Below are positions 8,751 through 28,428 of a DNA stretch of 42,105 bases, piece after piece (the first letter of the stretch is position 1; every line of letters begins with the position of its first letter). Under the pieces are notes generated by a model. The model was given only the letters and a program-made list of their open reading frames with translations. It made no database searches and had not been told where the DNA came from. The DNA is from Nitrospirae bacterium GWC2_57_13. GTDB taxonomy: Bacteria > Nitrospirota > UBA9217. The position numbers were made by a program, and so were the translations under genes. The stretch is taken from positions 28,844 through 70,948 of the forward strand of contig MHDZ01000010.1 of assembly GCA_001805055.1 (NCBI GenBank). The letters are read 5' to 3'.

Positions 8751-8836
8751 CTTTGGTTCCCGGGGGGCTGTCCCTGTCATAAAGGAAGGGGGCAAAAGGG
8801 TCAGCGACTATCCGGTAGGGGCGTGCTGAGGAGGTA

Positions 8837-9412
8837 TCAGAAGAGATGGCCCAGTCTGATGGTGATGAAATTCTCGCCGTTGTTCGGGCCGTCCCAGTTG
8901 AACAGCAGCTTGCCGTTCGAAAAGTGCGCGTAGCCTGCGGACAGGTCCCAGCGGCCGAAGGTCCGTCCCAGGGCGAGATGAAAGGCCATTTGGTAGCGCG
9001 TTCCGAGGTTGTCGGTGGTGCGGTCAAGATAGGCGATGCCTGCCGAACCGCTCAGGTACCAGGGGTCGCTCCAGTGCCAGCGGGCGCTCCGGGCAAGTCC
9101 GACAGCAGAGGCACGGCGTTTGCCGTTCCAGCCCGAGAGCAGCGCCTCATAGTGTCCGGGCAGGCCAAGAAGATCGGGCGCGTCCCAATGATAGCGGAGG
9201 GTGAATATCTCGGAATGGGAGGATCGATGAAAGCCCCTGCCGGTCTCGACAGACAGCATGTCGGCGCGGGTCGTTTGCGGGTAGAGAAAAAGGAAGAGAC
9301 TGAAGACAAAACAGCCCATCCCGCGCAGGAGAAGCGGAATGGGCCGGAACGTATCGTTGACCGCCGAAGACGCCACGCTACGATGCCGGCGTGGCCATGA
9401 GCTTTCTGACAT
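8837..9412 (-). CDS. PagL-like lipid A deacylase / acyloxyacyl hydrolase family outer-membrane protein
   Basis: 191 residues from ATG 9412, overlapping the end of yidC by 35 bases; ATG 9319 (MGCFVFSLFLFLYPQTTRAD) or GTG 9376 are alternatives. A hydrophobic signal segment ends near TTRA-D. Amphipathic beta strands end in Phe (GHLF), as in outer-membrane barrels. The C-terminal block AHFSNGKLLF...PNNGENF carries the PagL-type His-x-Ser and the downstream Glu. PagL removes the 3-O-acyl chain of lipid A in the outer membrane. Deacylase activity is inferred from these motifs. Confidence 0.75.
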   Translation of the reverse strand: MSESSWPRRHRSVASSAVNDTFRPIPLLLRGMGCFVFSLFLFLYPQTTRADMLSVETGRGFHRSSHSEIFTLRYHWDAPDLLGLPGHYEALLSGWNGKRRASAVGLARSARWHWSDPWYLSGSAGIAYLDRTTDNLGTRYQMAFHLALGRTFGRWDLSAGYAHFSNGKLLFNWDGPNNGENFITIRLGHLF

Positions 9413-16910: not shown

Positions 16911-17705
16911 CTAAGCGGTGGTCTCCGCAGGCACAAGGAACAGGGTCCTTCTGAGGCGATGCGGTTCGTCGAGCAGTACAGAGGCTGCCTTGCTGAGTTC
17001 CGAGGGCACTGCGCTTCCAGCGGGCAGAATGATAAGGGATGCATCATGGATATCTGCAGCCTTCAGGATCTCTTCATCAGGAAATCCTGCGCGGATCGCA
17101 TCCGTCACCGGGATGCCGCGTTCGTGAATGAGCTTCTTCGTTCTGCGTACGCAGTCAGCGGTCCTCTTTTTCACAGCAGCCAGTTCCTTTTTTTCCGAAG
17201 AGCTGTAAATATGCACGGGGACAATGCCGAGAACCACGACCTCCGAGGCCGTCGCTATGGCTTCCCGAGCCACATACTCAACTGTTCCTGGGGCGGCGCA
17301 GGCGTTGTCAACTGGTATGAGGATAGTTCCCGGAATGACCTGCACCGGGACAGGGGATGTTTTAACAAGCCCCTTGCTGCGAGGAGGGGCCAGGATCAGG
17401 TCTGCTCCTTCGGACCCGGCAAGCTGGGCTGCAATAGTGTCCGGATCGCCGTCTGCTGTTATGTAGCGAACATTCACCAGGGTCCGCTCTTCTTGAACGA
17501 GAGTTTTCGCTTCCTGGACTCGCAGAAGAAACTCCTGCCGGGCACGGTCTTCAGCGGCTAATCCCGCCTCGTAGTCCACGAAGAGACCCCTATCGAACAC
17601 GCTCAGCAACATAACTTCACCGCCTTTTTCGGCGCATTGGCTGATGCCGTACCTGAGGGCCCGCTTCGCGTGAACCGTTCCGTCATAGACCACGAGAATC
17701 TTCAT
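16911..17705 (-). CDS. universal stress protein, tandem-domain
   Basis: 264 residues from ATG 17705, with AGGAGG 9 bases upstream. The first USP fold begins MKILVVYDGTVHAKRALRYG; the second half begins GTILIPVDNACAAPGTVEY. The ATP-binding G-x2-G-x9-GS/T motif of UspF-type proteins is not evident, so it is nearer the non-binding type. USPs are cytoplasmic and induced by energy or redox stress. It has a sigma-54-type promoter (17749-17765) and a conserved upstream element (17805-17848). Confidence 0.88.
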   Translation of the reverse strand: MKILVVYDGTVHAKRALRYGISQCAEKGGEVMLLSVFDRGLFVDYEAGLAAEDRARQEFLLRVQEAKTLVQEERTLVNVRYITADGDPDTIAAQLAGSEGADLILAPPRSKGLVKTSPVPVQVIPGTILIPVDNACAAPGTVEYVAREAIATASEVVVLGIVPVHIYSSSEKKELAAVKKRTADCVRRTKKLIHERGIPVTDAIRAGFPDEEILKAADIHDASLIILPAGSAVPSELSKAASVLLDEPHRLRRTLFLVPAETTA

Positions 17706-17748
17706 AATTGTAAGCCTCCTATCGGAGCGATTTATCTGAAATGTAATT

Positions 17749-17765
17749 CTGCACATCGCATGCCA
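17749..17765 (-). promoter_or_regulatory. sigma-54 (RpoN) promoter of the tandem USP gene
   Basis: Minus strand TGGCATGCGATGTGCAG has GG and GC separated by exactly 10 bases; the -12 half is GTGCA (consensus TTGCA). The predicted start is near 17739, giving a 34-base leader. Confidence 0.7.
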
Positions 17766-17804
17766 GAAACATTGTCCTGGTAAATCAATATATTAGCAAG
17801 GTGA

Positions 17805-17848
17805 GCGCAGTATTCCTACTGCACTGAGGGCGCAAGAAAATACTGCAG
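17805..17848. promoter_or_regulatory. upstream activator element B (dyad GCAGTATTCCTACTGC plus half-site)
   Basis: GCAGTA-TTCC-TACTGC (17808-17822) is followed by a spaced AAAATACTGCAG half-site (17837-17848). It aligns with 19388-19432 at about 35 of 45 positions, in the same orientation and at the same distance (54-55 bases) from the -12 GC of the sigma-54 promoter. That fits an enhancer for an NtrC-type activator. Confidence 0.7.
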
Positions 17849-17906
17849 ACATCAGGTAGGTGCCGTTGATGATGGATTCAGAGCAAACATGCACTCCTTC
17901 TTCACT

Positions 17907-18005
17907 GATGCACTTAAATGATGCGGCTGCAGGGCAAGCTAATTTCCTTTGTCTCTCGCGGGTTACAATTGCGGGCCAAGTCCGCAGGCATCATTAAAGT
18001 GCACC
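17907..18005. promoter_or_regulatory. long-range inverted repeat in the divergent regulatory region
   Basis: GATGCACTTAAATGATGC (17907-17924) and its near-perfect inverse GCATCATTAAAGTGCACC (17988-18005) differ at 2 of 18 positions and flank ~63 bases. The right arm lies about 75-95 bases before the predicted start of the 18055 sigma-54 promoter, a normal enhancer position. Confidence 0.5.
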
Positions 18006-18054
18006 AGTAAAATTACATGCTCATATAATGCAATAAATTCAGCAAGTTGAATGG

Positions 18055-18070
18055 TGGCATAAGCATTGCT
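18055..18070 (+). promoter_or_regulatory. sigma-54 (RpoN) promoter of the small-protein operon
   Basis: TGGCATAAGCATTGCT fits the RpoN consensus TGGCAYR-N4-TTGCW without mismatch, with GG and GC separated by 10 bases. The predicted start is near 18081, 63 bases before the first ATG. Confidence 0.8.
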
Positions 18071-18143
18071 ATTACTGAAGCAGAACTGAGGGCACGGATA
18101 AGCCTCGGGGAAAGTCCAGAACGCGAATCTCACGGAGGATGCC

Positions 18144-18293
18144 ATGAAACGATTTATCGAGAAGCTCGAGAGCTACTGGGTAGCAGCGGCCTTTGCCGAG
18201 GAAGGCGTGTACGATCAGCTGGCTTTGGACAGGGTGAACAATACAATCTACAGGGAATCGATCACGGTACAGACTGCCCGGGAATGCGCTTAG
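18144..18293 (+). CDS. small 'FAE-G' protein, 49 residues (function unknown)
   Basis: A 49-residue ORF that starts MKRFIEKLESYWVAAAFAEE and ends TVQTARECA, with GGAGG 5 bases before the ATG and a near-perfect sigma-54 promoter upstream. It is clearly related to 25785-25958: both read M-x-[RK]-[FL]-I-x-K-[LF]-E, then VA-x-x-FAE-x-G, then a few acidic residues and NR/NN. The predicted fold is one amphipathic helix with no membrane segment. The stop codon TAG overlaps the ribosome binding site of the next gene, so the two are coupled. Confidence 0.75.
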   Translation: MKRFIEKLESYWVAAAFAEEGVYDQLALDRVNNTIYRESITVQTARECA

Positions 18294-18304
18294 GAGGGGA
18301 ATTC

Positions 18305-18529
18305 ATGTACAGCATCGAAATGATGATCGGCATCCGGAATATCCTGCTGGTTCAGATGGTCCTGGCAATGCTTCTTCTTCCTGGTGCTTCCACCGGCCTC
18401 GGTCAAGCGGCAGCTCGCATCAAGGGCCGGCTGTTTGCAGCCAAAGGCAAAGAGGATCGCCGCCGGCCCTCGTCAACGGAGCAGGCGGGCGACTTCTGCG
18501 AGATCGATATGTCGAAGTTCGATGAGTGA
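18305..18529 (+). CDS. small single-pass membrane protein, 74 residues (unknown)
   Basis: ATG 18305 follows TAGGAGGGG, in which the previous gene's stop and the Shine-Dalgarno overlap. Residues ~10-27 (RNILLVQMVLAMLLLPGA) form one membrane segment, followed by a basic stretch (RIKGRLFAAKGKEDRRR) and an acidic tail. The positive residues after the helix suggest the C-terminus is cytoplasmic. I do not recognise the family. Its place behind a sigma-54 promoter suggests a stress-related membrane peptide. Confidence 0.7.
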   Translation: MYSIEMMIGIRNILLVQMVLAMLLLPGASTGLGQAAARIKGRLFAAKGKEDRRRPSSTEQAGDFCEIDMSKFDE

Positions 18530-18546
18530 TCAGAAGCGTTCCGAAT

Positions 18547-18753
18547 TCAGCTCAGGTGAGATATCTTGTAGAGGATATAGAGCAGCATTGTGACGGGTGT
18601 AAAGCTCACGATGTACGACGCTGCAGAAGCGACAAAGGACCGGTAGAGGTCTACCCTCCCGACGGCAGCGGGAACGAGCAGGGCGCTCACCATAAGCATC
18701 TGAAGCGCCATGACGTTCGCCTGAGTAGCAGTTATCATATGTTCCAGTTCCAT
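18547..18753 (-). CDS. small two-helix membrane protein, 68 residues (unknown)
   Basis: AAGGAG 6 bases before the ATG supports it. There are two hydrophobic segments: MLMVSALLVPAAVG (~19-32) and ASYIVSFTPVTMLLYILYKI (~45-64). It converges on the previous gene (stops 17 bases apart) and lies downstream of the USP gene at 18827-19273 on the same strand, separated by a hairpin at 18777-18801. It may be co-transcribed with that USP. Function unknown. Confidence 0.6.
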   Translation of the reverse strand: MELEHMITATQANVMALQMLMVSALLVPAAVGRVDLYRSFVASAASYIVSFTPVTMLLYILYKISHLS

Positions 18754-18776
18754 TGCATCTCCTTCGAAAGATGAGC

Positions 18777-18801
18777 ACGCCCCGGTTCGTCGCCGGGGCG
18801 T
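18777..18801. terminator. GC-rich hairpin behind the single-domain USP gene
   Basis: A 9-bp perfect stem ACGCCCCGG/CCGGGGCGT with a 7-base loop. In neither direction is there a clean T-run (the plus side reads TTCCTGTTTT), so it may be a terminator, a partial terminator or an mRNA-stability hairpin. Confidence 0.5.
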
Positions 18802-18826
18802 TCCTGTTTTGCTCCCCTATCTACAG

Positions 18827-19273
18827 CTAGTTCTTTCTGCCTGCCACAACGGCCGCAAGCGTGAGCTGCGCAGCATCAGCCAGCTCAGTCGTGTTCACAG
18901 CGCGTCCTTCCTTCTCAAGCGCCTTCTGGTACCGTGCGATGACCGAGCGATACTTCGGCGGGCAGAGCAGAATGTCCACACCCTCTTCCTTTGCAAAGGC
19001 CACGACCTCTTTCTCGGGATCGCCGTCCATGGTCACGATGCTTGCCTTCAGCCCCTTGTCTTTGATCATCGCTTCCGCCTCGGACAAGAACCGCGCGCAC
19101 TCACTGCGAGCTGCTGTTTCAGCGGTAAGAGAAGCATCGTAATCCTTGAACGCCCAGGCGTTGAATACGTGCTGTACGATCAATGCGGCGTTCTTTTCCT
19201 TTGCCTTGCCGATACCATAAGCAAGCGCCTTCTTTGCCTGGAGCGTTCCATCATAAGCCACGAGAATCTTCAT
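18827..19273 (-). CDS. universal stress protein, single-domain
   Basis: 148 residues. It starts MKILVAYDGTLQAKKALAYG, very like the N-terminal half of the tandem USP at 16911-17705 (MKILVVYDGTVHAKRALRYG), including FKDYDASLTAE versus FVDYEAGLAAE. The conserved segment GDPEKEVVAFAKEEGVDILLCPP is present, but no G-x2-G-x9-GS ATP loop is evident. AGGAGG precedes the ATG. The promoter is sigma-54 type (19331-19347) with activator element A upstream. Confidence 0.9.
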   Translation of the reverse strand: MKILVAYDGTLQAKKALAYGIGKAKEKNAALIVQHVFNAWAFKDYDASLTAETAARSECARFLSEAEAMIKDKGLKASIVTMDGDPEKEVVAFAKEEGVDILLCPPKYRSVIARYQKALEKEGRAVNTTELADAAQLTLAAVVAGRKN

Positions 19274-19330
19274 TGTTATTTCCTCCTTTGAATTGAATGA
19301 GTAGTGCTGTGCTGCATTCTATCGCCTATA

Positions 19331-19347
19331 ATGCATGCTCTGTGCCA
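19331..19347 (-). promoter_or_regulatory. sigma-54 (RpoN) promoter of the single-domain USP gene
   Basis: Minus strand TGGCACAGAGCATGCAT has a perfect -24 half TGGCACA and GG-N10-GC spacing; the -12 half is ATGCA. The predicted start is near 19321, giving a 48-base leader. Confidence 0.75.
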
Positions 19348-19387
19348 GATGGTAAATCATCATTATTTCAATCAGTTGACAATATCC

Positions 19388-19432
19388 GTGCAGTATAAAT
19401 ACTGCAGTGACGCATGCAAGGAAATACTGCAC
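19388..19432. promoter_or_regulatory. upstream activator element A (dyad TGCAGTATAAATACTGCA plus half-site)
   Basis: A perfect 18-bp palindrome TGCAGTAT-AA-ATACTGCA (19389-19406) is followed by the half-site GAAATACTGCAC (19421-19432). It starts 55 bases upstream of the -12 GC of the sigma-54 promoter, against 54 for element B. The TGCA-N10-TGCA layout resembles NtrC-type enhancers. Confidence 0.75.
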
Positions 19433-19480: not shown

Positions 19481-20869
19481 CTAGTGGGTGGTAATGGAGT
19501 CCATATTGATCTCGAGGAGGTGGATCTTCTGCTGCAGGTTTTGGCGATGGATCTTGAGAAGGCGCGCAGCTTCGGATATGTTGCCGCCGGCCTCGACGAG
19601 CGCTGCGATAATGATATTGCGCTCGAACTGTGCCTTCGCATCCTTGAGCGGCATGAGAGGGATCTTCTGGGCGTCGCCGCCGGGCTTCCTTTCGTCAAGT
19701 ATATAAGGAGGCAGATCGTCCCTGCTGATCTCGGGTCCAGCGGTGAAGGCAATGGAGTACTCAAGGGAGTTTTCAAGTTCCCGAACATTGCCAGGGAAAT
19801 GATAGCTCAGAAGCGCCTGCACGGCCTCCTTTGCGATGCCCTGGATGTTCTTCTCCGCTGCCTTTCCGCGGTGTTTCTCGATCAAATGGGCCACCAGAAG
19901 CGGAATGTCATCCTTGCGCGCTCTCAGCGGCGGCAGCTCAATGGGGATCACATTCAACCGGTAGAACAGATCTTCCCGAAACAGCTTGTCTGCGATGGCC
20001 TTTTTCAGGTCCCGATTGGTGGCGGCGATGACGCGCACGTCGACAGTGCGGGGCTGCGTGTCGCCGACACGCAAAAAACCGCCGTCCTGGAGCACCCTCA
20101 GCAGTTTGACCTGGAGGGGCGGTGAAAGTTCTCCCACCTCGTCCAGGAACAGCGTGCCCCGGTCCGCCTCCTCGACCAGTCCTTTTTTGTCAGCGATGGC
20201 GCCGGTAAAGGAGCCTTTGGCATGGCCGAAAAGTTCGGACTCGATGAGATTCTCGGGAATGGCGCCGCAGTTGACGGTCACAAATTTTCGTTTGGCGCGA
20301 ACGCTGTTGCTGTGCACCGCGCGCGCGACCAACTCCTTGCCGGTCCCGCTTTCGCCGGTGATGAGCACGGTGCTTTCGCTGGATGCCGCGTGGCGCATGA
20401 TGCGGAACACTTCGTGCATTTCGGGGCTGTTCCCGATAATGCTGCGGAAGGAGTAGCGCGCCTCGATCTGCGTCCGGAGGGCGATGTTTTCCCGCTCCAG
20501 TCCTTTTCGCTCCAGGGCGCGCCGCACCGGGATCCGCACCTCATCAGGCGTAAAAGGCTTGGGGATGTAGTCGTATATGCCCTGCTTGATGGCCTCCACG
20601 GCCGATGGGATGGTGCCGAAGGCCGTGATGATCATGAAGATGCTGTCCGGCGCCAGATCCTTTACTCGCTCGTAGAGCTCCAGCCCGTCCATCTTCGGCA
20701 TCTTCAGGTCCGAGATAATCAGGTCGAAGCTGTGGTTCCCGAGGATGCCGACACCCTTTTCGCTGCTCGTCGTCGTTGTGACGTCGATGTTCAGCGTTTC
20801 CAGGATCGCCTTGACGGCTTCACAGACGCTCGCTTCGTCATCAACGACCAGCGCTTTGAACTTATCCAT
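19481..20869 (-). CDS. NtrC-family sigma-54-dependent response regulator
   Basis: 462 residues. The N-terminal receiver (~1-120) has VVDDEA, phospho-Asp in LIISDLKMP and PKP. The AAA+ domain (~140-380) has Walker A GESGTGKE, the sigma-54 contact loop as GSFTGA (usually GAFTGA), and Walker B GTLFLDEVGE. The C-terminal Fis-type helix-turn-helix is GGNISEAARLLKIHRQNLQQKI. It should activate RpoN promoters when phosphorylated by the kinase whose gene overlaps it by 8 bases (20862-20869). The nearby USP sigma-54 promoters, one only ~130 bases beyond its stop, are obvious candidate targets. Confidence 0.95.
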   Translation of the reverse strand: MDKFKALVVDDEASVCEAVKAILETLNIDVTTTTSSEKGVGILGNHSFDLIISDLKMPKMDGLELYERVKDLAPDSIFMIITAFGTIPSAVEAIKQGIYDYIPKPFTPDEVRIPVRRALERKGLERENIALRTQIEARYSFRSIIGNSPEMHEVFRIMRHAASSESTVLITGESGTGKELVARAVHSNSVRAKRKFVTVNCGAIPENLIESELFGHAKGSFTGAIADKKGLVEEADRGTLFLDEVGELSPPLQVKLLRVLQDGGFLRVGDTQPRTVDVRVIAATNRDLKKAIADKLFREDLFYRLNVIPIELPPLRARKDDIPLLVAHLIEKHRGKAAEKNIQGIAKEAVQALLSYHFPGNVRELENSLEYSIAFTAGPEISRDDLPPYILDERKPGGDAQKIPLMPLKDAKAQFERNIIIAALVEAGGNISEAARLLKIHRQNLQQKIHLLEINMDSITTH

Positions 20870-22352
20870 GTAGTGGCAGCCTCACGGTAAATGTTGTGCC
20901 CGTGCCGATCTCGCTTGAGACCTTGATGTCGCCGCCGTGTTTTTTAATGATGCCATAGCTCACGGCCAGCCCGAGTCCGGTTCCCTTCAGGGCGTCCTTG
21001 GTCGTATAAAAGGGGTCAAAGATCTTGTTCAGATGCTCAGGGGCGATGCCGCTGCCCGAATCAGCGATTGCGATATCCACAGTCTTGCCGGCATTTCGCG
21101 TTGCAACGTGGATCTTGCCCGGCCGTTCGATCGCGTGGATCGCGTTCAGCAGCAGGTTCAGCACCACCTGGCCGATCTGGGCGGGGTCGGCTGAGACCTC
21201 AGGAATATCGCCGGCGAGATCCATGGTGAGCGTGATGTCCTGGAACGCTTCCTGGGCTTCGAGTGATTCGATGATCTCGACCACCGGGTTGTTGATGTTG
21301 AGGTGTTCCGGTTTGATGATGATCTCCCGGCCGAAGTTCAGAAGTTGACGCACGATGTTCCGGGCCCGCGTCGTCTCCCGGGCGATCAGTGCCAGCTTGT
21401 CGCAGCGCGGATCATCCTTCAGGCATTGTTCGAGCATGAGGTTCGAAAAAGTAAGGACAGCCGTGAGCGGATTGTTGATCTCGTGGGCGATCCCGGCCGC
21501 CAGGCGGCCTACAGAGGCGAGTTTTTCGGCCTCCACAAGCCGGGCCTGCTTTTCCTGCAGTTTGTGGATGGTCTCCTCAAGCGCCGTCATAGCATGATCA
21601 AGCTTGTCCTCCATCTGGTTGAAGGACTCGCCGAGGGAAGCGATCTCGTCCTCGCCCCGCACCTCGATGCTTTCGGAGAAGTCTCCCCGCGTTATTTTTT
21701 TTGTGATCCGTTCCAAATTTTTGATCGGCGTGACAATGCTCCGCGCCAGCTTGCTGTTGATGACCGATCCGAGGATCACGATCAGGCCCACCGTGATGAC
21801 CAGAAGGATGGAGGAAACTTTCAATATGCGGGCGATGTCGCTCCGCTCCGCCTGCGAGTTCTCCGCGACGTAGACCTGGACCTCGCGGGCGACCGCGCGC
21901 AATTGCTCCACCTTGACCTTTTCCTCGAGCTGCAGCGCGAGAATTCTTTTATCGATGCCGCTGCGATCCGCTCTCCGGAGACGCTCCTGCTCACTCCGGG
22001 CCTTTCCAAGACCGCCGATGCGGTCCTCGTATTCTGCGATCCATAGCATCATTTTCGCAACATGTTCCTCGCCGATGTTCCGTGCCGCCTCGTCCCTGAT
22101 CTTAGCGATGGAGTCTTTCAATACGGCGAGATACTTCCCGATCTCTTCGAGACTGTCCGCATCGCCGTAGAGCAGGTAATTCTTCTCGTAGCGCCGTACT
22201 TCCAGCAGGGTATTCGTGATGTCGTCCGCAGTCTCGAGGTGCAGGAGGTGAGTGCTGATGGTGTTCAGGTCCTTGTAGGCAAGGATGCCGAACGCGACCG
22301 CGAAGAAAAGATAGAGGCCGAAGCCGAGGAACAGTTTTTCACGGATCTTCAT
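20862..22352 (-). CDS. membrane sensor histidine kinase, partner of the NtrC-type regulator
   Basis: 496 residues: membrane segment (~7-27), a helical four-helix-bundle-like periplasmic sensor (~30-185), a second membrane segment (~190-212), HAMP (~213-265), a coiled linker, HisKA with GIAHEINNPLTAVL (phospho-His ~288) and HATPase with NLLLNAIHAIE, DSGSGI and GTGLGLAVSYGI. It is likely to phosphorylate the overlapping downstream regulator. A TATAAT box (near 22366) precedes it, with a weak -35. The signal is unknown; such bundles often sense small ligands or envelope state. Confidence 0.93.
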   Translation of the reverse strand: MKIREKLFLGFGLYLFFAVAFGILAYKDLNTISTHLLHLETADDITNTLLEVRRYEKNYLLYGDADSLEEIGKYLAVLKDSIAKIRDEAARNIGEEHVAKMMLWIAEYEDRIGGLGKARSEQERLRRADRSGIDKRILALQLEEKVKVEQLRAVAREVQVYVAENSQAERSDIARILKVSSILLVITVGLIVILGSVINSKLARSIVTPIKNLERITKKITRGDFSESIEVRGEDEIASLGESFNQMEDKLDHAMTALEETIHKLQEKQARLVEAEKLASVGRLAAGIAHEINNPLTAVLTFSNLMLEQCLKDDPRCDKLALIARETTRARNIVRQLLNFGREIIIKPEHLNINNPVVEIIESLEAQEAFQDITLTMDLAGDIPEVSADPAQIGQVVLNLLLNAIHAIERPGKIHVATRNAGKTVDIAIADSGSGIAPEHLNKIFDPFYTTKDALKGTGLGLAVSYGIIKKHGGDIKVSSEIGTGTTFTVRLPLHG

Positions 22353-22429: not shown

Positions 22430-22873
22430 TTATATCCAGCAGGGCTCTTTTACCACGTATACGCAGCAATGGCTGTATTTCACGACTTTCGATGCGACGC
22501 TGCCGAGCAGGAAGCGGGCGCTCGCGCTCTTTCCTTTGCTTCCAATCACGATCAGGTCGGTCTTTTCTTTTTCCGCGAAGGCAACGATCTCCTGCGCCGG
22601 CGAGTCGCCGGTAATCAGTACCGTGCTGATGTCGGTCACGCCGTGCGCCTTCATCTGCTGCCTGGCCTTTGCCAGCAGGTCCTCGCCGCGGCGCTTCAGG
22701 CTTTCCAGCAGCTTGTCGCGCTCTGACGCAGAAAGCTCGAGGTCCACATCGGCCACCGAAACAATGACGTTGAGAATAGTAATCCGGGCCTTATTGGTCG
22801 TTGCAAAATGGGAGGCGACGCGGAGGCCTTCCGTAGATGGCTTGGAGCCGTCGATCGGCACGAGAACGTTCAT
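22430..22873 (-). CDS. universal stress protein, ATP-binding type
   Basis: 147 residues, MNVLVPIDGSKPSTEGLRVA at the start and the nucleotide loop GSKGKSASARFLLGSVASKV near the end (G-x2-G-x9-GS pattern). It therefore belongs to the ATP-binding USPs, unlike the other two USPs to its left. It is the last gene of the unit GntR-TauE-partner-USP, 7 bases after the partner's stop. USPs joined to transporters often bind or gate them according to nucleotide state; that role is inference here. Confidence 0.92.
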   Translation of the reverse strand: MNVLVPIDGSKPSTEGLRVASHFATTNKARITILNVIVSVADVDLELSASERDKLLESLKRRGEDLLAKARQQMKAHGVTDISTVLITGDSPAQEIVAFAEKEKTDLIVIGSKGKSASARFLLGSVASKVVKYSHCCVYVVKEPCWI

Positions 22874-22880
22874 GGTTGTC

Positions 22881-23609
22881 TTAGACCTCCTTTTTCACCT
22901 TTGCTTTTTTCATGGTCAGGCCGATCCCGTCGAACATGTAGAAGATCGCGAAGCCCCACCACATGGTGTATGCCACGTAGAAGATCAGGAGCCCGGTCAT
23001 GATGCCGGCCTTTTCAGATACCTGCTGTGCATTAATTCCGTAGTAATTGTAGGCGGGTTCCACGGCCTTCTTCATTACATCCGAGACGATCTTCGCCTCC
23101 TCGATCCTGCCCTGCTTCTTGAGCGATTTGTCAATGACCTTCAGCACGCTCCACCAGGAGGTCATGGCCTCTTTTTCGTCCATGCCGTAGCGGTCAGCGA
23201 CCTTTTTTCCGTCGTTCTTGTACATATCGTCGGCGTCCTGCAGTACCTTCGCCATCACTGCGCCGAGGTCGGCCTTCAGCTCGATGCCGGCGCCGGTATT
23301 CTGCGCTGCAGCCCCAGACGTTGTCAGGAGCTTCAGGGCATTGGCATTCTGTTCGGCCTTCTCAAGCTTGATCGTCAGCGAAACCTGCGTCCCTTTGATG
23401 GCCTCGTTACTCTTGGAAACCTTGGGAATGAAGTAGGATGAACCCTTCGAGAGCTTGTTGAACATATCGTCGGCGTAGACCAGCCCGTTCATGTCTTTTC
23501 CGTCCTTGTCTTTTCCGAAAACCGGCGAGAAGATAAGCGCGAGCACGCCGATAAATGTCACCGCAAGGAACACGCCTTTGAAAAGCTCAGTTTTATTTTT
23601 AACAAGCAT
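22881..23609 (-). CDS. membrane-anchored protein of unknown function, TauE partner
   Basis: 242 residues from ATG 23609, with GGGAGGAGG upstream, starting 2 bases after the TauE stop. An N-terminal membrane segment (~9-31) is followed by a helical, Lys- and Asp-rich domain (~33-195), probably on the periplasmic side. A second hydrophobic stretch (~198-226, GIMTGLLIFYVAYTMWWGFA) and a basic tail KKAKVKKEV follow. I do not recognise the family. Tight coupling between a TauE/SafE exporter and a USP suggests an accessory or sensing subunit of the exporter. Confidence 0.8.
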   Translation of the reverse strand: MLVKNKTELFKGVFLAVTFIGVLALIFSPVFGKDKDGKDMNGLVYADDMFNKLSKGSSYFIPKVSKSNEAIKGTQVSLTIKLEKAEQNANALKLLTTSGAAAQNTGAGIELKADLGAVMAKVLQDADDMYKNDGKKVADRYGMDEKEAMTSWWSVLKVIDKSLKKQGRIEEAKIVSDVMKKAVEPAYNYYGINAQQVSEKAGIMTGLLIFYVAYTMWWGFAIFYMFDGIGLTMKKAKVKKEV

Positions 23610-23611
23610 GG

Positions 23612-24865
23612 CTATGCCTCCTCCCTGAGGGTCTTGATGTTCGCAAAGAACTTGCTGAAAATCCATAGGCCGAAGATTGCGACAACGATCCAGAAGACTA
23701 TATTTCCGACGAACTCAATGCCGTTGATCACGCCTTTGGATAGGCTGATGTATTCAAGCTCTACCATTTTCTTGGGCAGCGTGGCTGCTCGGTTGATGAA
23801 ACCTGCAAGGATCGAAACAGCATAAAATCCGCGGATATGGATACCTTTCACGACCTTTGTCGTGAGTGCGCCGACCTGGATGCCTATGAGCGATCCGATC
23901 AGCATGCCCATGGCCAGCGTGTAGAACACGTACCCGTAAATGGCATACTGGGCGATGGAGGCAAGACCGGCGGTAAAGATGATCTGGAGAATATCGGTGC
24001 CCACCGTTGTGGCAGTGGACACGCCGAAGGTGTACACGAACATGGGGAAGGTCACAAATCCGCCGCCCACACCCATGATGGCCGCAAGGATACCAACGAT
24101 CACACCGCCCATGGCCACGAAGACGCCGGAGATCTTCTTGCCGCCTTCGACATAGTCCTCATCGAACGTGATCATGGGTGGAACGTTCATCTTCTGGAGC
24201 TTGCTCGCAAAAGCAGTGGTGCCGGCTGGACCGCCGTGTGCATCACCGCCCCCTGTTGCCGGTCCTCTCGTGGACTTCCAGAAGTCTATTGCAGCGTACG
24301 TGCCGAGGAAACCGAGCAGGATGGCATAGACCAGGCTGATAAAGGCCTCGGACAGCAGCGGGTCCTTATCATAGAGCAACCTGTTGATATACCCGCCGAT
24401 GAACGTTCCGGCGCCCGAACCGAACAGGAATGCTACTGCAAGCTTTACTGATACATTGCCGAGCTTTTTGTGGACCGTGGTGCCCATGATCGCCTTGGCA
24501 AAAATATGGAACACGTCCGTGCCCACGGCGAGGATGCCTTTCACGCCTGCGGCCATCAGGGCAGGCGTAATGATGAACCCGCCTCCTGCGCCGATGCAGC
24601 CGGTAATCAGACCGGCGGCCAGCCCGATGGCGATGGAAACCATGAAGATGCTGGTCGAATAGAATGCAGGTGCATAGGCCGTTTTGCCGCCCAGCATGCC
24701 GCCTGCGTCGGCCAGCGACACGGCCACGATCGGCAGCAGCAGCAGCAGCAGTATCCACATTTTCTTGCGGTTGTGGATAATGCTCATGGATACCTCATAG
24801 TCCCACTTGGCGTGCGCCACTGACGCCGCCTGAAGAAAGTCATACATGTGTCTGAAAAAAGCCAT
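23612..24865 (-). CDS. sulfite exporter TauE/SafE family permease
   Basis: 417 residues. Two repeats each carry the family's Gly-rich helix: GLITGCIGAGGGFIITPALMAAG and GILAAIMGVGGGFVTFPMFVYTFG. About eight or nine membrane segments are visible, plus a ~45-residue cytoplasmic loop. The amphipathic N-terminus (MYDFLQAASVAHAKWDYEVS) before the first helix is an extension relative to short TauE proteins. The family moves sulfite, sulfonates or other sulfur anions across the inner membrane. AGGAGG lies before the ATG. A run of six CTG codons (24732-24749) encodes Leu in helix 1. Confidence 0.9.
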   Translation of the reverse strand: MAFFRHMYDFLQAASVAHAKWDYEVSMSIIHNRKKMWILLLLLLPIVAVSLADAGGMLGGKTAYAPAFYSTSIFMVSIAIGLAAGLITGCIGAGGGFIITPALMAAGVKGILAVGTDVFHIFAKAIMGTTVHKKLGNVSVKLAVAFLFGSGAGTFIGGYINRLLYDKDPLLSEAFISLVYAILLGFLGTYAAIDFWKSTRGPATGGGDAHGGPAGTTAFASKLQKMNVPPMITFDEDYVEGGKKISGVFVAMGGVIVGILAAIMGVGGGFVTFPMFVYTFGVSTATTVGTDILQIIFTAGLASIAQYAIYGYVFYTLAMGMLIGSLIGIQVGALTTKVVKGIHIRGFYAVSILAGFINRAATLPKKMVELEYISLSKGVINGIEFVGNIVFWIVVAIFGLWIFSKFFANIKTLREEA

Positions 24866-24899
24866 TTTGTGGAGCCTCCTTTCAATGAGTGGTGCTGAT

Positions 24900-25640
24900 T
24901 TATGCGATTCGCTCCAGTTCGGTCTGGATCTTGTACTTTCTGCCGCTTCCGGTCAGGCGAGTGTAGGCGATGGGCGAGCCGTCAGCGCCCACCAGGATAC
25001 GGTGCAGCAGCAGTACGGGCGTGCCTTCGTCAGTCTTCAGGATCGATGCCGCGTCCCCGCGGATCTCCGCTACCTCGATCGTCTGTACGACTTTGGAAAT
25101 TATTTTTCCCGCACGCTGTTGGATGAGATCGTAAAGAGGCGTCTGGCAGATATCCTCTTCTTCTATTCCGGGAAAAAGCGTGAGGGAGATATAGGATTCC
25201 TCAAGATAGGCGGGCTCGCCGTCCACGACGCGTTTGCACAGAATGTAATAGATGGCGTCGTGGGAATTGAGGCACGCCCTCACGTCCTCCGTCGATTCGA
25301 TGGCTCCTTTGACCAGGATTTCCTTCCGAACATTCACCCCCTCTCCGAACATGCCTTCCGTCAGTCTCGTCTTCATGGCTAGTCCGAGATCGGGCGCCCT
25401 GTAGGTGACGAAGGTTCCTTTTCCCTGTTTCTTTTTTAGACTGCCCTTGCGTTCAAGGTCTGAAATTGCCATGCGGATCGTTGCCTTGCTGACATTGAAA
25501 ATTCTGCAGAGCTCGTCCTCAGTCGGTATCTGCGATCCCGCGGGCCATTCGCCAAGGGCGATCTTCTCCTCGATGATCTCCGATGCCTGCACATAAAGCT
25601 TCTGCTGGCTTTGTCTGTCGATTTTTTTATTAATGGTCAT
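24900..25640 (-). CDS. GntR-family regulator with UTRA ligand domain (HutC subfamily)
   Basis: 246 residues. The winged helix is at ~15-85 (GEWPAGSQIPTEDELCRIFN, then VSKATIRMAISDLERKG and GKGTFV); the UTRA effector domain is at ~95-240 (ending LTGSGRKYKIQTEL). These usually repress a transport or catabolic operon until a small ligand binds. It ends 34 bases before the TauE gene, so it probably controls its own operon. No Shine-Dalgarno is seen before the ATG. GTCATGT occurs twice, 16 bases apart (25636-25642, 25652-25658), over the start and could be its operator. Confidence 0.92.
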   Translation of the reverse strand: MTINKKIDRQSQQKLYVQASEIIEEKIALGEWPAGSQIPTEDELCRIFNVSKATIRMAISDLERKGSLKKKQGKGTFVTYRAPDLGLAMKTRLTEGMFGEGVNVRKEILVKGAIESTEDVRACLNSHDAIYYILCKRVVDGEPAYLEESYISLTLFPGIEEEDICQTPLYDLIQQRAGKIISKVVQTIEVAEIRGDAASILKTDEGTPVLLLHRILVGADGSPIAYTRLTGSGRKYKIQTELERIA

Positions 25641-25658
25641 GTATTTCGTATGTCATGT
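25636..25658. promoter_or_regulatory. possible GntR operator over its own start codon
   Basis: Direct repeat GTCATGT spaced 16 bases, one copy covering the GntR start codon. A TATAAC box lies just upstream (minus strand). Autoregulation is inferred from the location only. Confidence 0.35.
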
Positions 25659-25784
25659 TGTTATAATGATTCTAAAAAGACAAAAAAAGTCAGGAGGTTG
25701 GCCCCCTCTTCATTTCATGATCTTCGCGCCATGCGCGACGATCTTAGATCAGGAGCTCCAATATCCCGAAGCTCTTACATCCGG

Positions 25785-25958
25785 CTAGTTAGCCTTTTGG
25801 CTGGCCAGTCTCTGCTGGTCCCCGACAGCCGGCTGCGAAAGAGCGGTATCGTCTTCCACGCGGTTGTGAGCCACCTTGTTGGCTTCATCGAACTCGCCTG
25901 CTTCGGCAAAGGTGATGGCTACCATGAGATCTTCGAATTTTGCAATTAACTTATTCAT
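25785..25958 (-). CDS. small 'FAE-G' protein, 57 residues (paralogue of the 18144 gene)
   Basis: ATG 25958 with GGAGG 5 bases upstream. The sequence opens MNKLIAKFEDLMVAITFAEA, continues GEFDEANKVAHNRVEDD and ends SQKAN. It matches the 49-residue product at 18144 over the first ~30 residues (I-x-K-x-E, VA-x-x-FAE-x-G, later NR/NN). It is soluble, helical and acidic in the middle. Its promoter region has a sigma-54-like element (25988-26003) and a palindrome (26068-26085). It lies between an NtrC-like regulator gene and the GntR/TauE operon. Function unknown. Confidence 0.75.
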   Translation of the reverse strand: MNKLIAKFEDLMVAITFAEAGEFDEANKVAHNRVEDDTALSQPAVGDQQRLASQKAN

Positions 25959-25987
25959 GGCACCTCCATTTCTATGGAATTGTATTA

Positions 25988-26003
25988 TTCAATCCTTGTG
26001 CCA
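25988..26003 (-). promoter_or_regulatory. sigma-54-like promoter of the 57-residue protein gene
   Basis: Minus strand TGGCACAAGGATTGAA has a perfect -24 half and correct spacing, but TTGAA replaces TTGCA at -12. The leader to the ATG would be about 19 bases. Confidence 0.5.
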
Positions 26004-26067
26004 GACAATAATGTATTGAAAATCCTGACTAAAATAATTAGGCCTATCGGTTGGTGCAACATAATGA

Positions 26068-26085
26068 TGCTTATAGAAATAAGCA
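26068..26085. promoter_or_regulatory. 18-bp palindrome TGCTTATAGAAATAAGCA
   Basis: 6-bp arms TGCTTA/TAAGCA around TAGAAA, 79 bases upstream of the -12 element, in the usual enhancer zone. It has the same TGC-N12-GCA frame as elements A and B, with a different core. Confidence 0.5.
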
Positions 26086-26139
26086 ACAATGTAGAATAAC
26101 GGGGAAATGAAGAAGCAACAATTTGATGCGGAGAGAGGG

Positions 26140-27432
26140 TTAGATTGCGATGCGGTATTCTTTGATCTTTCGCTGGAGTTGCTGCCGATAAATTCCGAGG
26201 CTTGCAGCAGCCCGGGAGATATTGCCGCCAGCCTCGATAAGGGCCGCCGCTATGGTTTGTTTTTCAAAGTCAGCGAGCGCATCCTTAAGGCGCGGTGAGG
26301 CCGCGCGGGGCCGCGTCGGTTCCTGCCTGAGAAAAGCTGGAAGATCTGAGGGAAAAATTTCAGCAATATCGGCAAAGGAGATGGCCCGCTCGATGATGTT
26401 CTCAAGCTCGCGGACATTGCCGGGAAAGGAATAGGCGGTCAGAACCGCCATGGCCTCGGGAGAGATCCCCTTGATCAGAACGTCCTTGCGCTTGGATGCG
26501 TGCTTTGTGACGAAGTGCTTGGCCAGAAGGGCGACATCGGCGGTGCGTTCGCGCAGCGGCGGGAGGTGGATATTGATGACATTCAGACGGTAATAGAGGT
26601 CTTCACGGAAACCGCCGCGCTGGCAGGCAGCGCGCAGGTCTTTGTTCGTCGCGGTGATGAAGCGCACATCCACATGCATGGGGCGGCTGCCGCCGATCCG
26701 CATGATCTCGCCTTCCTGAAGGACGCGCAGGATCTTTGTCTGGAACAGCGGGGAGACATCTCCGATCTCGTCGAAGAACACCGTGCCGCCGTCAGCCAGT
26801 TCGAGCAGCCCCTTCTTGGTGTACTGGGCTCCCGTGAAGGAGCCCTTTTCAAAACCGAAGAGCTCTGATTCCAGAAGCGTATCGGGAATGGCGCTGCAGT
26901 TGATCGTCATGAAGGAGCGGTCGCTGCGCGGGCTCCAGCGGTGGATCGCCCGGGCGAGCAGCTCTTTTCCCGTGCCGCTCTCACCCGTGATCAGGACACT
27001 GCTCTCGCTGGCTGCGGCCCTCTTGATCAGTCCGAATATCTCCTGCATCGGTCCGCTGGCGCCGATGATCTCGTCGAACCCGTATTTGTGCGTCAGCAGT
27101 TCATGGCGGTGGCGGGCCATGACTTCGGCCAGGGTGTCGGCGGTCAATGGTTTTTCGAGGTAGTCGCCGGCGCCCAGTTTCATTGCTTCGACGGCCTTGC
27201 GCACGTCGGGCCGGGAGAAGGCGACGACCGGCATGCGGTGGCGAACCTCCATCAGCCGCTCGCGCCAATTCTCGGTGTCCAGGTCCACAAAGGCTATGTC
27301 GTATTCCCTACGACCGGCCGGAAGTGCAGACGCTGACGAAGACGCGTTCTGCCCTTCGGACGAAGCTTTTTCGGCCTTGAACAGGCCGTACAGCTCCTTC
27401 GCTTCATCAGAGATGACAAGAATATTCAACAT
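26140..27432 (-). CDS. NtrC-like sigma-54 activator with a divergent receiver
   Basis: 430 residues. The N-terminal ~115 residues resemble a receiver but are altered: ILVISDEA has one acidic residue fewer, an Ala/Ser-rich insert follows, then AFVDLDTEN at the phospho-Asp place and YLEKPL for the Lys. AAA+ (~125-360) has GESGTGKE, GSFTGA and GTVFFDEIGD. The Fis-type helix-turn-helix is GGNISRAAASLGIYRQQLQRKI. No cognate kinase is adjacent. It starts 17 bases behind a tandem USP gene and is probably co-transcribed with it; no clear ribosome binding site is present. Confidence 0.93.
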   Translation of the reverse strand: MLNILVISDEAKELYGLFKAEKASSEGQNASSSASALPAGRREYDIAFVDLDTENWRERLMEVRHRMPVVAFSRPDVRKAVEAMKLGAGDYLEKPLTADTLAEVMARHRHELLTHKYGFDEIIGASGPMQEIFGLIKRAAASESSVLITGESGTGKELLARAIHRWSPRSDRSFMTINCSAIPDTLLESELFGFEKGSFTGAQYTKKGLLELADGGTVFFDEIGDVSPLFQTKILRVLQEGEIMRIGGSRPMHVDVRFITATNKDLRAACQRGGFREDLYYRLNVINIHLPPLRERTADVALLAKHFVTKHASKRKDVLIKGISPEAMAVLTAYSFPGNVRELENIIERAISFADIAEIFPSDLPAFLRQEPTRPRAASPRLKDALADFEKQTIAAALIEAGGNISRAAASLGIYRQQLQRKIKEYRIAI

Positions 27433-27449
27433 GCCGGTTTAGGGAAACG

Positions 27450-28346
27450 TTATGCCGCTGTCTTGACAGCGAGCACGGCGCATTCAGCTGTGACGATCAC
27501 CCGCTCCGTGACGCTGCCCATCAGCAGCCGGTCCATGCCGGTCTTGCCGAGGGTGCCGAGGATGATGAGATCGGCCTTCTTTTCCTTTGCAGCCTCTAGA
27601 ATGCCTTCCGACGGTTTTCCGCCAAGCACCAGGCCGCTCACCGTGATGCCCTCTTTGGCTGCTGCGTCCTTGGCCTCCTTTACGGCCATCTCGGCGATCT
27701 TCAGCTCCTTTTCCACGATCAGGTCCTTCCGCAGTTCTGAGTGTACGATATCCATGGCGGCTACAGACTCCGATGGCACGACGGAGAGGATCGTGAGCTC
27801 GCTTCCGCAGCGCTTTGCGATGCCCATGGCCTCAGACACGGCCGCGTCGCCGTACCGGGAACCGTCGGTGGCGACCAGGATCTTCTTGCACGAGAACTGA
27901 GCAGCCCGGGGAACGACGAGCACATTGCACGGTGCCTGGCCGATAACGCGGGCAGTGACGCTTCCCATCATGAGCCGCGAAAGCCCGGTTCTGCCGCGTC
28001 TGCCCATGATGATCATTGTCGTCTTCCGTTCTTCGGCCTCCTGAGCGATCAGCGCAAAGGCCTCGTCGCCCCGCCGAACGACGGTCTCGCAATCGACACC
28101 CGCCTTCTTTGCCCGCTGTTTGATCGCCTCCAGATGTTCGCGCACCTCTGCATCGATCTTTTCAACTATCTGCGGCGCCATGGCGTCAAATTCCGGATTT
28201 ACCTCAATCACCGACATGACGGTCAAGGAGCTTGAGCACTGCTTCGCGAGCGAAAGGGCTTCCCTGATCGCCCCCTCGTTGAACGCGGACCGGTCTGATG
28301 CCAGAAGCAACTTCTCAACTCTTGCCGTAGGACAGAACGTTGCCAT
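27450..28346 (-). CDS. tandem universal stress protein with two ATP loops
   Basis: 298 residues from ATG 28346, with AAGGAGGG upstream. Both USP domains keep the nucleotide motif: GRRGRTGLSRLMMGSVTARV (~146-165) and GTLGKTGMDRLLMGSVTERV (~268-287). The order of family signatures is regular in both halves (VEKLLLASDRS; KKILVATDGSRYGDAA). It is a cytoplasmic stress protein. It has a strong sigma-70 promoter with a 22-bp near-palindrome just behind it and shares an operon with the NtrC-like regulator. Confidence 0.93.
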   Translation of the reverse strand: MATFCPTARVEKLLLASDRSAFNEGAIREALSLAKQCSSSLTVMSVIEVNPEFDAMAPQIVEKIDAEVREHLEAIKQRAKKAGVDCETVVRRGDEAFALIAQEAEERKTTMIIMGRRGRTGLSRLMMGSVTARVIGQAPCNVLVVPRAAQFSCKKILVATDGSRYGDAAVSEAMGIAKRCGSELTILSVVPSESVAAMDIVHSELRKDLIVEKELKIAEMAVKEAKDAAAKEGITVSGLVLGGKPSEGILEAAKEKKADLIILGTLGKTGMDRLLMGSVTERVIVTAECAVLAVKTAA

Positions 28347-28406
28347 ATGAATACCCTCCTTACGATAGTTAAGATGATGTTGATGGGTGCAACAGGCGGG
28401 ACGCAG

Positions 28407-28428
28407 AATTTGTTGCATGCAGCAAATT
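28407..28428. promoter_or_regulatory. 22-bp near-perfect palindrome, likely operator
   Basis: AATTTG-TTGCATGCAG-CAAATT has a single mismatched pair. It lies about 10-30 bases downstream of the predicted transcription start of the tandem USP gene, a repressor position. Confidence 0.6.

Follow-up and report, generated by a model that had tools for sequence, protein, structure and literature searches.

Analysis of a 42,105-nucleotide stretch of DNA from Nitrospirae bacterium GWC2_57_13 (the window) strongly supports a shared sigma-54 (RpoN) enhancer-promoter architecture before two universal stress protein (USP) genes, USP1 and USP2, as a sequence-only reading of this DNA had proposed; the architecture is conserved in 15 genomes and its motif co-occurs with one regulator gene. 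Nearly all genomes in which this control region occurs also encode one particular sensor-regulator pair, so the region and the pair very probably belong together as a small dedicated stress switch. With a probability of roughly 0.8, we propose that a dedicated histidine kinase-NtrC system would switch on USP1 and the operon of USP2 and a small membrane protein via sigma-54 and IHF (Table 1).

Table 1 Features of the USP module in the window, with positions counted from its first letter
Feature	Position	Strand	Description or basis
USP1	16911..17705	(-)	264 aa, two-domain length; Pfam Usp 79 bits
USP1 sigma-54 -24/-12 core TGGCATGCGATGTGCA	17750..17765	(-)	GG 17764-17763, GC 17752-17751; script and relatives
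USP1 IHF-like site TAATATATTGATT	17783..17795	(-)	9/9 specified positions
USP1 UAS2, dyad TGCAGTAGGAATACTGCG	17806..17823	(-)	script, pattern search and relatives
USP1 UAS1, imperfect dyad TGCAGTATTTTCTTGCG	17831..17847	(-)	script and 21-promoter alignment
Small hydrophobic membrane-type protein	18547..18753	(-)	68 aa; downstream of USP2
USP2	18827..19273	(-)	148 aa; Pfam Usp 51 bits
USP2 sigma-54 -24/-12 core TGGCACAGAGCATGCA	19332..19347	(-)	GG 19346-19345, GC 19334-19333; script and relatives
USP2 IHF-like site CAACTGATTGAAA	19366..19378	(-)	8/9 specified positions
USP2 UAS2, perfect dyad TGCAGTATTTATACTGCA	19389..19406	(-)	script, pattern search and relatives
USP2 UAS1, imperfect dyad TGCAGTATTTCCTTGCA	19415..19431	(-)	script and 21-promoter alignment
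NtrC-type response regulator, proposed activator	19481..20869	(-)	Pfam: receiver, sigma-54 AAA+, Fis-type HTH
Histidine kinase, proposed partner	20862..22352	(-)	Pfam: HAMP, weak four-helix-bundle sensor match

A sigma-54 -24/-12 element and an enhancer-like element had been claimed before both USP genes (ATG at 17705 and 19273), and their coordinates were confirmed. Both cores have the form GG-N10-GC close to TGGCACG-N4-TTGCW, as expected of sigma-54 promoters, and are conserved in relatives; the genome encodes RpoN (PF04552, 203 bits). Transcription is predicted to start about 12 bases past the GC, near 17739 for USP1 and near 19321 for USP2. Measured by script on the minus strand, 53 (USP1) and 54 bases (USP2) separate the end of the dyad from the -12 GC, replacing the 54 and 55 given before, and the common orientation stands. 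The upstream half-site TGCAGTATTT lies 24 (USP1) and 25 (USP2) bases ahead of the dyad start in identical orientation. Compared by eye, the two elements agree at about 34 of 43 positions (previous count about 35 of 45), only when a 1-base gap is placed between the two boxes. The description as a dyad plus half-site holds for the dyad (UAS2), while the supposed half-site turned out to be a second imperfect dyad, TGCAGT-N6-TTGC (UAS1). The sequence-only reading had overlooked a further conserved element, an IHF-like site located between the enhancer and the promoter.

In the GWC2_57_13 genome, the dyad alone with at most one mismatch gave 2 matches versus 2 for a reversed control and is not beyond chance; since with one to two mismatches it remained about as frequent as the control, it was dropped as evidence. 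The combined pattern, GCAGT-N6-ACTGC followed after 36-48 bases by GGCA-N7-TGC, gave exactly 2 matches in 3.3 Mb, corresponding to the USP1 and USP2 promoters, with 0 for the reversed control and about 0.005 expected per genome by chance. Relaxing the dyad to GCAGT-N8-TGC yielded zero extra sites in this genome, and its other USP genes showed no sigma-54 core with an enhancer of the TGCAGT-N6-ACTGCA type.

The element had been expected to recur before USP orthologues in relatives, and it was indeed present there, with the promoter layout observed in 21 promoters of 15 Nitrospirota genomes from seven families. It stands ahead of a USP1 and/or USP2 orthologue in G001 (a genome from the same family as GWC2_57_13), G002, G003, G009, G010, G012, G033 and G034, and is also present in G008, G141, G183, G208 and G353, as well as in G291 with a degenerate dyad. 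The USP1 and USP2 orthologues adjoin each other in several relatives. Alignment of the 21 promoters by their anchors gave a mean information per base of 1.38 bits for UAS1, 1.32 for UAS2 and 1.07 for the sigma-54 stretch, compared to 0.13 to 0.27 bits for the intervening DNA, demonstrating that the boxes are kept and the spacers are not. In most relatives UAS1 is an imperfect dyad, YGCAGT-N6-TTGCR, separated by 7-8 bases from the main dyad downstream. The equal spacing in the window had been taken as equal helical phase; as the dyad-to-GC spacing among relatives spans 51-54 bases, this phase is preserved only approximately. The surroundings of 80 more distantly related NtrC-type genes yielded zero sites of this dyad-plus-core form, and 2 isolated matches in 247 genomes from the phylum of Geobacter sp. 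OR-1 were judged from their sequence to be chance.

Most of the promoters contain a sequence near YAANNNNTTGATW, which corresponds to the IHF consensus WATCAANNNNTTR in reverse; 9-10 bases separate it from the dyad and 27-29 from the -24 stretch that follows. The summed score of these IHF-like sites was 168, while 500 shuffles averaged 129 and never exceeded 139, and their mean information in the promoter alignment is 0.93 bits; the site is weak or missing in three promoters, those of G002 (USP1), G291 and G353. Both USP1 and USP2 of GWC2_57_13 have the consensus between enhancer and -24 element. The genome encodes an IHF-beta-like protein scoring above one cut-off (PRK00199), and a second homologue matches no named model, leaving one recognised IHF-type subunit in a genome that is incomplete.

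The regulator encoded at 19481-20869 had been suggested as the activator, and both motif co-occurrence and a near-invariant recognition helix support it in that role; the co-occurrence also points indirectly to it as the putative binder of the dyads. All domains of an NtrC-type activator are present in it, a GSFTGA loop is readable in its sequence, and the histidine kinase adjoins it in relatives. With orthologues of this regulator defined by E values up to 1e-150 (68-77% identity outside GWC2_57_13), 16 of the 396 genomes of the phylum have the exact motif and 13 a close regulator orthologue, with 12 common to both (Fisher P = 9e-19, ignoring relatedness). The four genomes with the motif only are G002, which has a partial regulator gene beside its USP genes, G003, whose assembly is 74% complete, and also G155 and G185, in which the pattern matches were rejected as chance, since an IHF-like site is absent and the surroundings contain neither a USP nor a close regulator match. 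The regulator is present in G291, where the motif is degenerate, and in G008, G009 and G010 it lies 27 kb off or on another contig and the motif is still kept. The core of the recognition helix, HRQNLQQK, is identical in 14 regulator orthologues.

The presence of a second NtrC-type activator, encoded at 26140-27432 with a degenerate receiver domain, nearly tracks the module too. The promoters could be true sigma-54 promoters whose enhancer is bound by this protein instead, given that its orthologues occur in most motif-bearing genomes and that its HTH resembles that of the 19481-20869 regulator. However, G005 encodes a 74% identical orthologue of it yet has no close regulator orthologue, USP2 orthologue or motif, which disfavours this activator as the dyad binder; furthermore, the usual neighbour of the USP genes is the 19481-20869 regulator, and the recognition helices of the two proteins differ (GIYRQQLQRK versus NIHRQNLQQK), making this assignment improbable. 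Palindromic sites alone cannot separate an activator from a repressor, and the dyads might be occupied by a separate repressor or another factor while the sigma-54 activator binds elsewhere. We consider this less probable still, because transcription from sigma-54 promoters depends on an activator, the presence of the motif follows that of an NtrC-type regulator, and two dyads upstream at a fixed distance with an IHF-like site between form the classical enhancer layout. The likeness of the two regions might also be a relic, devoid of present function, of the duplication of one USP gene together with its upstream DNA, as the paralogous USP1 and USP2 share 39% identity in the first domain and the dyad alone does not exceed chance in GWC2_57_13. 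This explanation appears extremely unlikely, since the spacers have diverged to 0.1-0.3 bits per base and the boxes persist across seven families.

USP1, USP2 and their orthologues lack the ATP-binding signature G-2x-G-9x-G(S/T) at the position where it normally stands, and two neighbouring USPs (22430-22873 and 27450-28418) carry it. The 68-aa protein, for which no family match was obtained, is found behind USP2 in equal orientation in G001, G002, G008, G009, G010, G012 and G208, and weakly in G033. As it follows USP2 with its orientation kept in relatives, the two genes probably form one operon driven by the USP2 promoter. The chances appear even that the USP pair without ATP signature and the small membrane protein constitute the whole conserved sigma-54 regulon of the kinase-regulator pair, which would have been gained or lost as one module across Nitrospirota with its own enhancer code.

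Several further features were observed nearby. A third strong sigma-54 core, TGGCATAAGCATTGCT, lies at 18055-18070 (+) in the gap between USP1 and the USP2 operon, roughly 90 bases ahead of a small ORF at 18144-18293 (+), and was not found before the relatives of small ORFs that were checked. Upstream of it is a 24-base inverted repeat pair (17901-17924 and 17988-18011, 88% complementary), which might serve as the enhancer of another activator. The 49-aa ORF at 18144-18293 and a 74-aa ORF at 18305-18529 (+) face the USP2 operon and gave no family match; relatives of both occur in the corresponding gap of G002, G009 and G012, and of the 74-aa ORF also in G001, G008 and G010. A cluster at 22430-28418 (-), upstream, is conserved alongside the kinase and regulator genes in several relatives and encodes the ATP-signature USP (22430-22873), a protein without family (22881-23666), a TauE/SafE-type exporter, a GntR-type regulator, the activator with the degenerate receiver and a tandem USP (27450-28418). 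In locus L161 of G012, an extra receiver-like match (8834-9193) lies between regulator and kinase, with 53% to the first 120 residues of the regulator.

Combining these elements, we propose that the histidine kinase would sense a signal, probably periplasmic, and phosphorylate the NtrC-type regulator, dimers of which may bind the two dyads, UAS1 and UAS2, that lie side by side ahead of both USP1 and USP2. IHF would bend the DNA at its conserved site, which separates the enhancer from the promoter, the AAA+ ring of the regulator would contact sigma-54 RNA polymerase at the -24/-12 core, and the operon of USP2 and the small membrane protein would be switched on jointly with USP1 as a small dedicated regulon. 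This would assign probable targets and a probable binding site to an uncharacterised NtrC-type regulator, and would present a case in which a sensor kinase acts mainly through USPs, which are usually studied under other controls; the module may also offer a reference point from which sigma-54 control in Nitrospirota can be annotated.

The regulator shares its receiver, AAA+ and Fis-type HTH domains with activators of the NtrC, AtoC and ZraR types, and its best NCBIfam scores are those for AtoC and NtrC, all far below the equivalog cut-offs (AtoC 434/714 bits, NtrC 413/559, ZraR 377/760). No description of the Nitrospirota site, its regulator or the apparent restriction to USP targets was found in the open-access literature searched, and the main text of a paper on the Desulfovibrio sigma-54 regulome mentions neither a USP nor a site of this type. 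In Planctomycetia, UspA-type genes are enriched behind predicted sigma-54 promoters (PMC12316311); the passage concerned names no activator or enhancer, and Nitrospirota is unmentioned in its text. A closer counterpart is NmpR of Myxococcus xanthus, an NtrC-like regulator that acts through paired dyads to activate sigma-54 promoters, with the USP gene mxan_3966 among its targets (PMC11841059). Therefore, this kind of system is already known and the novelty claimed for an RpoN-driven USP regulon was too strong, with the Nitrospirota site itself not found described. The NmpRSTU regulon resembles the Nitrospirota module in its NtrC-like response regulator, its paired dyads before sigma-54 promoters and its USP target (PMC11841059). 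Likened by description, the sites themselves are distinct: those of NmpR read GCGCA-N5-TGCGC and stand 14-15 bases apart in most promoters, and those in Nitrospirota read TGCAGT-N6-ACTGCA; the NmpR regulon is also wider, being devoted to oxygen utilisation, and its USP carries the ATP signature, unlike USP1 and USP2 (PMC11841059).
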